Assembly: GCF_005937885.2 (NCBI RefSeq)
Contig: NZ_CP042176.1
Coordinates: 5,699,501 to 5,763,500, forward strand
DNA: 64,000 bases
DNA from: Bradyrhizobium sp. KBS0727
Lineage (GTDB): Bacteria; Pseudomonadota; Alphaproteobacteria; Rhizobiales; Xanthobacteraceae
Direction of reading: 5' to 3'
In this document: piece after piece, positions 31,564 through 39,504 of the stretch
How the letters are laid out: every line of letters starts with the position of its first letter
Numbering within the stretch: position 1 is the stretch's first letter
Translations under genes and position numbers: made by a program
The notes under the pieces: generated by a model
The model's input: only the letters and a program-made list of their open reading frames with translations
Told to the model about the DNA's origin: nothing
The model's database searches: none

Positions 31564-34277
31564 GCGGCGGTATCCAGGGAATTGCTGGCTTCAGGTATCG
31601 GCAGCCGGATGGTGAGCACCGCGCCGCTGCGGTCGGCGCGGTTGGCGGCCGTAATCGTGCCGTGCATGGCTTCGACGAAACCACGCGAAATCGCCAGCCC
31701 AAGCCCGGTGCCGGGGCGGACATGATCGCCCTTCTGCACGCGATAGAATTTGTCGAACACGCTTTCCAGTTCGCCCAGCGGAATGCCGTTGCCCTCGTCC
31801 ATGATCTGCAGCGCGACCTGTCCGCGGTCCGGCATGGCCCGGATCGATATCGTGGTGTCCGGAGCGGCGTATTTGGCGGCGTTGTCCAGCAGATTGAACA
31901 GCACCTGTTCGAACAGCACGGCGTCGAGCTCCAGCATCGGCAGATCGGCCGCCAATTCGAGCGAGACCTTGTGATGGATCAGGATCTTCCCGGCCCGGCG
32001 CAGCGCGCTGCCGACGATCTCGCTGAGGTCGTGCCGCGCGGTATTCGGCACAATGGCGCCGGATTCGAGCTTGGTCATGTCGAGCAGATTGGCGATAAAG
32101 CGATTGAGCCGCTCGGACTCGTCGATCACGGTGGCGAGCAGATCGCGCTTCTCCTCGTCCGTCAGGCCGGCGTCGAGATCGCGGATGGTGGAGGCGGCGC
32201 CGAGCACCGAGGCCAGCGGCGTCTTCAGATCATGCGAGATCGAGGTCAACAGCGCGCCGCGCAGCCGGTCGGACTCCACCGTGCGCTTGACCCGGTCCAT
32301 GTCCTCGACCAGCAGCACGCGCTCGATCGCCAGCGCGCCCTGATCGACCAGCGCATCCAGCAGCCGCCGCTGATCCGGCGTCAGCAAGGGGCCGGTGCGG
32401 TCGTCGTCGATGCCGATGACGCCGATCGCCCCGCGCCCGGTTCGCATCGGCAGGAACAGCCGCTTGGCGCCCGGTAGCGTGTCGGAGCCGCGCCCGGCCG
32501 GGCGGTCGTTGTCCCAGGCCCAGTTGGCGGCGGCGAGATCGGCCTGGTCGAGCTGGTCCTCCGGCGGATAGCCGGCCATCACGGCCAGGACGCCCTCCTC
32601 GGGCAACAGCAGCACCACGCGCACCTTCAGCATCAGCGCGGTCTGGTAGGCGGTCGCCCACAGCACGTCGTCGAGTGTCGCGGTGCCCGCCAGTTTGCGG
32701 CTGAAGGCGTAGAGCGACTCAGTGGTGCGCACACGGCCGATCGCGGTGTCGGCCTGCGAACGCACCCGTGCCGCGACGTTCGATACCAACAGCGCAATCA
32801 GCATGAAGAAGAAGAACGCCGCGATATTGGTCGGATCGGTGATGGTGAAGGTATAGACCGGCGGCAGGAAGAAGAAATTGTAGCACAGCGACGCTGTCAC
32901 GCTCGCCAGCAGTGACGGCCACAGACCATAACGCGCGGCAACGCTGACGACCGCGGTGAGAAACACCAGGTCGACGTTCTCGATGCCGCCGAACAGCGGT
33001 TGGATCAGCGAGGCCGCGGCAAGCCCGATCGCGACGAACAACAACGCCATCAAATAAGGCCGCGGGTTGAACGGCTCCGGCCGCGCCGCGGTCTGGACCG
33101 CCGCCTTGGCCACGGGCTGCTCGTCGCCGGCGATGACGTTGACGCTGATATTGCCGGCGCGCCGCACCAGATCATGCACGACCGAGCCGCGCATCAGCTC
33201 GAACCACCACGAGCGCGTCGATTTGCCGATGATGATCTGCGTTACGTTGTTGGCTTGCGCGAAATGAATGACGTCGTCGGCAATGCGGCGGCCGACGCCG
33301 GGGACGGTCAGCGTTTCAGCCCCGAGCGCTTCGGCTAGCCGCATGGTGTCGGCGAGCCGGTCGCGCTGCTCGTCGGTCAGTTGCAGGCTGCGCCGGGTCT
33401 CGATCGAGATCGCCGTCCATGGTGCGTGCAGCCGGTCCGCCACCCGCTTGGTGTAGCGCACCAGGCCGGCCGCGCGCGGGTCCTCGCTCAGGCAAACCAG
33501 AATGCGCTCTCCCGCGGCCCAGGGGCCTGCGATGGCATTGGCCTGCATGTGGGTCAACAGCTGCTCATCGACCCGCTCCGCGGTTCGCCGCAACGCCAGC
33601 TCGCGCAGCGCGGTCAGATTGCCTGGCGAGAAATAATGCTCCAGCGCCCGCTCGGCCTGCTTGGGCACATAGACCTTGCCCTCTCTCAACCGCTGGATCA
33701 GGTCGTCCGGCGTGAGGTCGATCAGCTCGATGGCGTCGGCGCGGTCGAACACCTTGTCCGGCACGGTTTCGCGCACCCGGACGTGGGTGATCTGGGCCAC
33801 CACATCGTTGAGGCTTTCGATGTGCTGGATGTTGACGGCGGTATAGACATCGATGCCCTGGGAGAGCAGCTCTTCGACATCGAGATAGCGCTTGGGATGC
33901 CGGCTGCCCGGCGCGTTGGTGTGGGCGAGTTCGTCGACCAGCGCGATTTGCGGCCGCCGCGCGATCAGGGCATCGAGGTCCATTTCCTCGAGCGTCTGCT
34001 CCTTGTAGGTGAGCCGCTTGCGCGGCAGCACCTCGAGGCCCGCGAGCAGCGCTTCGGTCTCGGCCCGGCCGTGGGTCTCGACCACGCCGACGACGACATC
34101 GGCGCCCGCCTTCATCCGCGCATGCGCGCTCTGCAGCATCTCGTAGGTCTTGCCGACGCCAGGGGCGGCGCCGACGAAGATCTTGAGCTTGCCCGCGCGG
34201 CTTTCCTCGCGCCGGGCCGCTTCCAGCAGGGCTTCCGGCGAGGGACGTTGTTCGGAATCGCGGCGGGCTTGGACCAT
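31560..34277 (-). CDS. kdpD: osmosensitive K+ channel sensor histidine kinase KdpD
   Basis: A 905-residue inner-membrane sensor kinase. The N-terminal KdpD domain has Walker A GAAPGVGKTYEML (36-48), followed by a USP-like domain. Four closely spaced membrane helices lie in the middle, then a GAF-like region. The kinase core has SISHDLKTPLASVLGAAS (phospho-histidine) and the ATP-binding GTGLGLAISRGFVEAMHG. It senses K+ limitation or osmotic stress and phosphorylates KdpE. Length matches E. coli KdpD (894). It follows kdpC by 41 bases. Confidence 0.95.
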   Translation of the reverse strand: MVQARRDSEQRPSPEALLEAARREESRAGKLKIFVGAAPGVGKTYEMLQSAHARMKAGADVVVGVVETHGRAETEALLAGLEVLPRKRLTYKEQTLEEMDLDALIARRPQIALVDELAHTNAPGSRHPKRYLDVEELLSQGIDVYTAVNIQHIESLNDVVAQITHVRVRETVPDKVFDRADAIELIDLTPDDLIQRLREGKVYVPKQAERALEHYFSPGNLTALRELALRRTAERVDEQLLTHMQANAIAGPWAAGERILVCLSEDPRAAGLVRYTKRVADRLHAPWTAISIETRRSLQLTDEQRDRLADTMRLAEALGAETLTVPGVGRRIADDVIHFAQANNVTQIIIGKSTRSWWFELMRGSVVHDLVRRAGNISVNVIAGDEQPVAKAAVQTAARPEPFNPRPYLMALLFVAIGLAAASLIQPLFGGIENVDLVFLTAVVSVAARYGLWPSLLASVTASLCYNFFFLPPVYTFTITDPTNIAAFFFFMLIALLVSNVAARVRSQADTAIGRVRTTESLYAFSRKLAGTATLDDVLWATAYQTALMLKVRVVLLLPEEGVLAVMAGYPPEDQLDQADLAAANWAWDNDRPAGRGSDTLPGAKRLFLPMRTGRGAIGVIGIDDDRTGPLLTPDQRRLLDALVDQGALAIERVLLVEDMDRVKRTVESDRLRGALLTSISHDLKTPLASVLGAASTIRDLDAGLTDEEKRDLLATVIDESERLNRFIANLLDMTKLESGAIVPNTARHDLSEIVGSALRRAGKILIHHKVSLELAADLPMLELDAVLFEQVLFNLLDNAAKYAAPDTTISIRAMPDRGQVALQIMDEGNGIPLGELESVFDKFYRVQKGDHVRPGTGLGLAISRGFVEAMHGTITAANRADRSGAVLTIRLPIPEASNSLDTAA

Positions 34278-38902: not shown

Positions 38903-38998
38903 TCAGGAGAGTCTGGCGGGCAGCAGCATGCGCAGCAGCGCAATCAGCAGCGCCGACGTCACAACAAACGCGAGCACGATCTGGAAAAGGGCGAGCAT
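38903..38998 (-). CDS. 31-residue single-helix micro-ORF between kdpF and kdpA
   Basis: Not a known named gene to me. It encodes MLALFQIVLAFVVTSALL, then IALLRMLLPARLS: one hydrophobic helix with a short basic C-terminus, a KdpF-like layout but without KdpF's signature. It starts seven bases after the kdpF stop and ends 12 bases before the kdpA start. No clear ribosome site precedes it, so translation would depend on coupling to kdpF. It could be a second small subunit of the Kdp pump, a leader controlling kdpA translation, or a chance frame; the tight packing favours a real role. Confidence 0.5.
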   Translation of the reverse strand: MLALFQIVLAFVVTSALLIALLRMLLPARLS

Positions 38999-39005
38999 GG
39001 CGCGC

Positions 39006-39095
39006 TCAGAACCGTTCCGGCCGCAGCAGCGCGTAAGTGAGATAGAACAGCAGGCCCACCGAGACGAGGGCAGCGAGCGAGTAATCGAAAGTCAT
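39006..39095 (-). CDS. kdpF: potassium-transporting ATPase subunit F
   Basis: A 29-residue membrane peptide, MTFDYSLAALVSVGLLFYL and TYALLRPERF. The Y-x-L-L-x-P-E-x-F ending is the KdpF signature. KdpF stabilises the KdpABC complex in the inner membrane. AAGGAGAG ends six bases before the ATG, a strong ribosome site. It lies between two other micro-ORFs and ahead of kdpA, the normal kdpF position. Confidence 0.9.
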   Translation of the reverse strand: MTFDYSLAALVSVGLLFYLTYALLRPERF

Positions 39096-39108
39096 GGCGC
39101 TCTCCTTC

Positions 39109-39192
39109 TCACAGCCGTTCGCAGGCATAGGCGTAACCTATGCCTGCCACGAAGAAGCCGAGGCCTAGCGCCAGCATGACAATGTCCAGCAT
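39109..39192 (-). CDS. 27-residue membrane micro-ORF at the head of the kdp operon
   Basis: It encodes MLDIVMLALGLGFFVAGIG followed by YAYACERL: one membrane helix and a short polar end. AGGAA lies six to seven bases before the ATG at 39192 and it ends 13 bases before kdpF, so it appears to be the first translated gene of the kdp operon. I recall similar tiny proteins ending Y-x-x-AC-(D/E)-RL ahead of kdpF or kdpA in other bacteria, but no function. A role as an extra Kdp subunit or regulator is inference. Confidence 0.62.
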   Translation of the reverse strand: MLDIVMLALGLGFFVAGIGYAYACERL

Positions 39193-39303: not shown

Positions 39304-39504
39304 TATAGGAATCTCATAAAGGCGACGGCCTCCACGGGTGTCGTCCCTGCGAACGCAGGGACCCATATCGCGTTGCTCCCCCGATAGGGCAGAGTCGCCA
39401 ACGGCATTCGGAACATCGGCATCGGTGGCTATGGGTCCCTGCGCCCCGTGCGCAATTGCGCACTAGGCAGGGACGACGGGGACCATCTTTATGAAATCCC
39501 TATA
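39304..39504. repeat. 201-base MITE-like palindromic element
   Basis: The ends TATAGGAATCTCATAAAG (39304-39321) and CTTTATGAAATCCCTATA (39487-39504) are inverted repeats with 16 of 18 matches. A second nested pair is GTCGTCCCTGCGAACGCAGG with CAGGGACGAC, and GGACCCATA with TATGGGTCC. The centre has CGCAATTGCGCA. This is a dispersed element type of Bradyrhizobium relatives (recalled). It lies upstream of the kdp operon; the kdp promoter is presumably between 39193 and 39303. Confidence 0.75.

Follow-up and report, generated by a model that had tools for sequence, protein, structure and literature searches.

Kdp is a model P-type pump that has been studied almost only in its E. coli form, and the solved Kdp complexes known to us are from E. 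coli. Other large membrane complexes are stabilised or tuned by helices of 25-50 residues, such as CydX in cytochrome bd and AcrZ in AcrB. In Clostridium acetobutylicum, orfZ and orfY are said to encode hydrophobic peptides, an observation attributed to Treuner-Lange in 1997. A later paper places these two small ORFs (kdpZ and kdpY) before kdpA in the kdpZYABCXDE cluster and reports that they are cotranscribed under K+ limitation (PMC5401905). For Caulobacter, an unannotated kdpF has been noted, and a structured leader of about 100 nt has been proposed 5' of it (PMC8552747). The Clostridium kdpZY mention and the note on the unannotated Caulobacter kdpF are all that we found in the literature on a named small protein 5' of the kdp genes. 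Main-text passages of the papers on S. fredii and S. meliloti do not mention the gene that we call ORF1 below, and those of the S. meliloti ribosome-profiling paper name no kdp peptide.

We examined a kdp operon in a 64,000-nucleotide stretch of DNA (the window) from a genome of 7.3 Mb in one contig, whose KdpA has its closest named relatives in Bradyrhizobium. An initial annotation, made from the letters of the window, had proposed that two unannotated micro-ORFs, ORF1 and ORF3, flank kdpF. Its coordinates, spacings, Shine-Dalgarno sites and the overlap of the kdpA ribosome site with the ORF3 stop proved exact to the base (Table 1). The spacers measure 13 nt between ORF1 and kdpF, 7 nt between kdpF and ORF3, and 12 nt between ORF3 and kdpA. 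An AGGA-type site precedes ORF1 in relatives too, and the sequence before ORF3 is GCGCGCC. As had been predicted from one membrane helix each, the peptides of ORF1, kdpF and ORF3 all consist of a single hydrophobic stretch. The intergenic sequence 5' of ORF1 (39342-39468) contains palindromic repeats, including a near-perfect palindrome, CGTCCCTGCGAACGCAGGGAC, and 14-nt inverted arms, CGCAGGGACCCATA, with 62 nt between them; they resemble a dispersed repeat element that is present in a single copy within the window.

Table 1. Features of the kdp 5' region and the first kdp genes, in window coordinates.
Feature	Coordinates	Strand	Description
Shine-Dalgarno site of ORF1	39203-39199	-	AGGAA
ORF1	39192-39109	-	27 codons; single-helix micro-protein MLDIVMLALGLGFFVAGIGYAYACERL; 5' of kdpF
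Shine-Dalgarno site of kdpF	39107-39100	-	AAGGAGAG
kdpF	39095-39006	-	29 codons; NF011342, E 3e-19; PF09604, E 5e-10
ORF3	38998-38903	-	31-codon hydrophobic micro-ORF MLALFQIVLAFVVTSALLIALLRMLLPARLS; Bradyrhizobium-specific; without Shine-Dalgarno site
kdpA ribosome site	38903-38899	-	AAGGA; overlaps final base of ORF3 stop
kdpA	38890-37187	-	PF03814, E 5.6e-245
kdpB	37171-35033	-	712-aa ORF; assigned by sequence recognition

The frame of ORF1 is intact, at 27 codons, in all 46 Bradyrhizobium loci, and its spacer to kdpF varies from 10 to 21 nt in 30 Bradyrhizobium loci. Using the Nei-Gojobori method on the Bradyrhizobium loci, we obtained an omega of 0.34 for ORF1 (95% CI 0.20-0.53), compared with 1.22 in both of its other frames and 0.13 for kdpF, so that constraint is weaker on ORF1 than on KdpF. 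Not one stop codon was observed in the ORF1 frame among 43 distinct Bradyrhizobium sequences, against a mean of 32 in column-shuffled alignments, and the coding-type substitution score relative to column shuffles was z = 5.1 for ORF1 and z = 7.8 for kdpF. The gene is genuinely protein-coding, and purifying selection acts on its peptide. Short frames are frequent in this GC-rich DNA, with 119 ORFs of at least 20 amino acids in 9 kb, and both micro-ORFs could in principle be open by chance; the coding signature, the lack of stops, the homology across phyla and the clean antisense and shuffle controls described below make that hardly credible for the pair, and for ORF1 it is already refuted.

To define the family, micro-ORFs 5' of kdpA were read in 80 named-genome loci, about 130 Pseudomonadota regions, 30 Chloroflexota loci and 25 plasmid records. 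The named set consists of the best 80 KdpA matches and hence leans towards Alphaproteobacteria, and Bacillota and Actinomycetota were sampled through plasmid records only. We seeded a profile with 13 ORF1 peptides from Alphaproteobacteria and iterated it, discarding any peptide that scored better as KdpF. It matches 202 of 264 kdp upstream regions in the sense direction, none of the 264 in antisense, and 1 of 1,584 shuffled regions. Carriers are found in Alpha-, Beta- and some Gammaproteobacteria, Chloroflexota, Actinomycetota and Deinococcus: 77 of 77 loci in the named alphaproteobacterial set, 24 of 30 in Chloroflexota, 5 of 6 actinobacterial plasmid loci and 96 of 151 others. Small hydrophobic peptides easily look alike, but the shuffle and antisense controls for ORF1 are clean nonetheless. 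Trained on Chloroflexota alone, a model picks out 69 of the 77 alphaproteobacterial copies, while one trained on Alphaproteobacteria alone picks out 19 of 30 in Chloroflexota and 3 of 6 in Actinomycetota, neither giving any antisense match. Because the separately trained models recognise each other's members, the homology of ORF1 between phyla is confirmed.

No ORF1 was detected in 62 of the 264 regions, some of which are contig ends or have a misplaced start; loci without it include those of E. coli (L187), a Pseudomonas-like group (f188), Halobacterium, Staphylococcus and lactobacilli. Placed on the KdpA tree, presence and absence of ORF1 call for 6 changes, compared with a mean of 9.7 after shuffling, and none of 500 shuffles was as low. 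Its presence across most of the tree would, depending on the root, fit an old gene with several losses. In a Listeria plasmid (L325), an ORF1-like peptide that scores below the threshold, MDFFMLGILIFSYFMSKMIVHWCDSQIKQR, lies at -205 to -112 from kdpA, hinting that the family may extend to Bacillota. Eight annotated plasmid records that contain kdpF have no CDS at the position of ORF1, a result that is indicative only, given the incompleteness of the PLSDB annotation tables. In Sinorhizobium meliloti strain ml46, ORF1 occupies 31908-31991 (+) of pSymA (CP140882.1), directly 5' of kdpF at 32001. Annotation pipelines appear to miss the family even where kdpF is called, and ORF1 would give them a family to add. 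Since the start of alphaproteobacterial ORF1 lies about 95 nt before kdpF, the structured leader of Caulobacter may itself hold an ORF1.

The members of the family are predicted to form a single helix and are mostly 26-37 residues long. The most conserved positions are a D near the start (93%), a mid-helix F (78%), a C (64%), a D/E (71%), an R/K (76%) and a terminal L (71%), and most members end in C-[DE]-R-L; D3, C24 and R26 are among the conserved residues of ORF1. The first six residues contain no K/R and 0.98 D/E per protein, and the tail contains 1.67 K/R; by the positive-inside rule, this acidic N-terminal end without K/R and basic tail suggest an N-out/C-in topology. KdpF resembles ORF1 in having about 29 residues and one transmembrane helix, in being encoded next to it in the same operon and, probably, in its orientation. 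It differs in that ORF1 does not close with a C-terminal PE[RK]F-type motif and is present in addition to KdpF. Against our own KdpF profile ORF1 scores 1.0 bit, a value that 102 of 300 shuffles equal or exceed and that is thus at chance level. Neither ORF1 nor ORF3 has a KdpF match in Pfam or NCBIfam (PF09604, TIGR02115 and NF011342), diverse ORF1 members gave no convincing match to any family there, and the ORF1 profile matched no chain in the PDB. We thus class ORF1 as a new family of the single-helix accessory micro-protein type, of which there may be older sightings in single species. Possible prior art are orfZ and orfY of C. acetobutylicum, which are like ORF1 in their position 5' of kdpA. 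Should orfZ prove homologous, one species had already shown the gene in 1997, apparently without its ever being recognised as a widespread family.

Another line of evidence is the linkage of ORF1 to kdp. With a profile built from Bradyrhizobium alone, most matches at E<0.01 in 289 whole Alphaproteobacteria genomes lie directly 5' of a kdpF. ORF1 occurs besides KdpF in 201 loci, 5' of kdpF in 198 of them and 3' in 3. The order kdpF-ORF1-kdpA is found in three loci (L259, L264 and L284), which indicates that ORF1 is linked to the operon rather than to a single leader position. The genome of L284 carries a second kdp cluster on another contig, and a further kdp locus (L270) has ORF1 with no kdpF found. 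Without functional linkage, the same kdp neighbour over several phyla would be difficult to account for. This weighs against the idea that ORF1 is a real membrane protein that just happens to share the operon and its low-K+ induction while serving a function unrelated to Kdp; the tie to the pump is so far a genetic one, as that idea would have it, but we consider the idea very unlikely.

In 35 of 199 loci ORF1 runs 4 nt into kdpF, so that its stop and the kdpF start share an ATGA-type sequence, and in 13 of 199 the overlap is 1 nt. A Shine-Dalgarno-like site precedes ORF1 in 84% of cases compared with 12% at random positions, although such sites were also used in choosing the starts. As the first ORF of the operon, often overlapping kdpF by 4 nt, ORF1 might act as a translated leader or coupling ORF that opens the start region of kdpF or kdpA, with the peptide itself doing little, and the 5' leader proposed for Caulobacter, structured and roughly 100 nt long (PMC8552747), is similar in extent to ORF1 in Alphaproteobacteria. 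Such a role is difficult to reconcile with selection at the amino-acid level, with polar residues conserved over phyla and with the swaps in gene order. Moreover, the RNA shows no excess folding (z = -0.34), and of the 12 pairs in the one strong hairpin within ORF1 just 5-6 persist in 21 of 46 relatives, so that we regard a leader of this kind as quite improbable. An RNA attenuator or conserved hairpin within ORF1 was rejected on the same fold score, the loss of the hairpin and the selection on the peptide. The suggestion in the initial annotation that the micro-ORFs regulate translation is consequently disfavoured in the case of ORF1; for ORF3 it could still hold, through coupling.

Taking gene linkage and conserved residues together, we consider it probable that ORF1 serves the Kdp pump as an accessory subunit or regulator of one helix, which is missing in E. 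coli. The family would consist of old inner-membrane proteins whose genes belong to the kdp operon, as a rule directly 5' of kdpF, and whose translation is coupled to that of KdpF. The peptide would insert N-out/C-in and bind KdpFABC as an extra subunit that stabilises the complex or modulates its activity, with putative contacts at its C-[DE]-R-L terminus and, within the helix, at the conserved F and Y/C positions. It is absent from E. coli, from Pseudomonas-type lineages and from some others. CydX and AcrZ are likely working analogues; their roles have been shown by experiment and that of ORF1 is putative, and no sequence relation is claimed. The proposal that the micro-ORFs encode further subunits of the Kdp ATPase thus gains good circumstantial support in the case of ORF1, from an almost universal association with kdpF and kdpA in several phyla, distinct conserved residues and the tolerance of order swaps.

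Alternatively, ORF1 may not be a pump subunit but a membrane peptide whose signalling to KdpD, or to a different partner in the membrane, provides negative or positive feedback. Single-helix peptides from transporter operons can act on kinases, a regulatory role as a membrane peptide has been discussed for mycobacterial KdpF (PMC3618439), and the linkage and conservation of ORF1 would fit equally well. The linkage is specifically to kdpF and kdpA, however, and we think signalling of this kind unlikely, if less so than the leader.

The KdpFABC complex of E. coli works and has been solved without ORF1, so the ORF1 peptide is not needed for pumping as such. Somewhat tentatively, most bacteria with kdp could have a five-subunit pump in which ORF1 is the fifth, the four-subunit KdpFABC of E. 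coli, from which almost all structural and mechanistic knowledge derives, being a reduced form. A conserved second single-helix kdp gene would change the list of Kdp parts in most lineages, and would explain what heterologous work on Kdp from organisms other than E. coli may be missing.

The situation differs for ORF3, which occurs in Bradyrhizobium only and so lacks the linkage to kdpFABC across lineages seen for ORF1; it was not found in Afipia or other neighbours outside Bradyrhizobium. Its copies fall into three sequence classes with omega values of 0.49-0.59. In classes b and c, omega alone fails to separate the frames, and it is the column-shuffle test that discriminates against a chance frame, with z = 5.2, 3.1 and 3.8 in the three classes and no stops. 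Length changes in class a are multiples of three. In accordance with the initial annotation, both ORFs are thus real micro-ORFs with a coding-type substitution pattern in relatives, but only ORF1 is kept throughout: ORF3 is lost or truncated in 4 of 46 loci where kdpF is intact, the pattern that the annotation had itself named as refuting its proposal. For ORF3, the idea of a conserved Kdp subunit therefore finds no support. ORF3 has no match to KdpF or to ORF1. The possibility that it is a second, diverged KdpF was rejected because its profile scores are no better than those of shuffles; some copies end in PA[RK]KF, and their score is nevertheless at chance. As a relative of ORF1 it shows a weak trend, several copies reaching scores that about 1-5% of shuffles equal, and no relationship is claimed.

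The best reading of ORF3 is a young, dispensable micro-protein confined to Bradyrhizobium. Its lack of a Shine-Dalgarno site, its start 7 nt past kdpF and a stop that falls on the ribosome site of kdpA make re-initiation its likeliest mode of translation: ribosomes that have finished kdpF would translate ORF3, coupling kdpF to kdpA and possibly aiding ribosome loading on kdpA.

Two further small peptides came to light. In two related Alphaproteobacteria (L044 and L045), an ORF1-like peptide, MIDIFYTAIA...CGYAWACAK, is encoded away from kdp with no kdpF nearby, and the surrounding genes gave no lead. In Rhizobium ruizarguesonis (L142, 3214-3369), an annotated hypothetical protein of 51 amino acids (WP_018071107.1) is encoded between kdpA and kdpB and is possibly the product of another small Kdp-linked gene.
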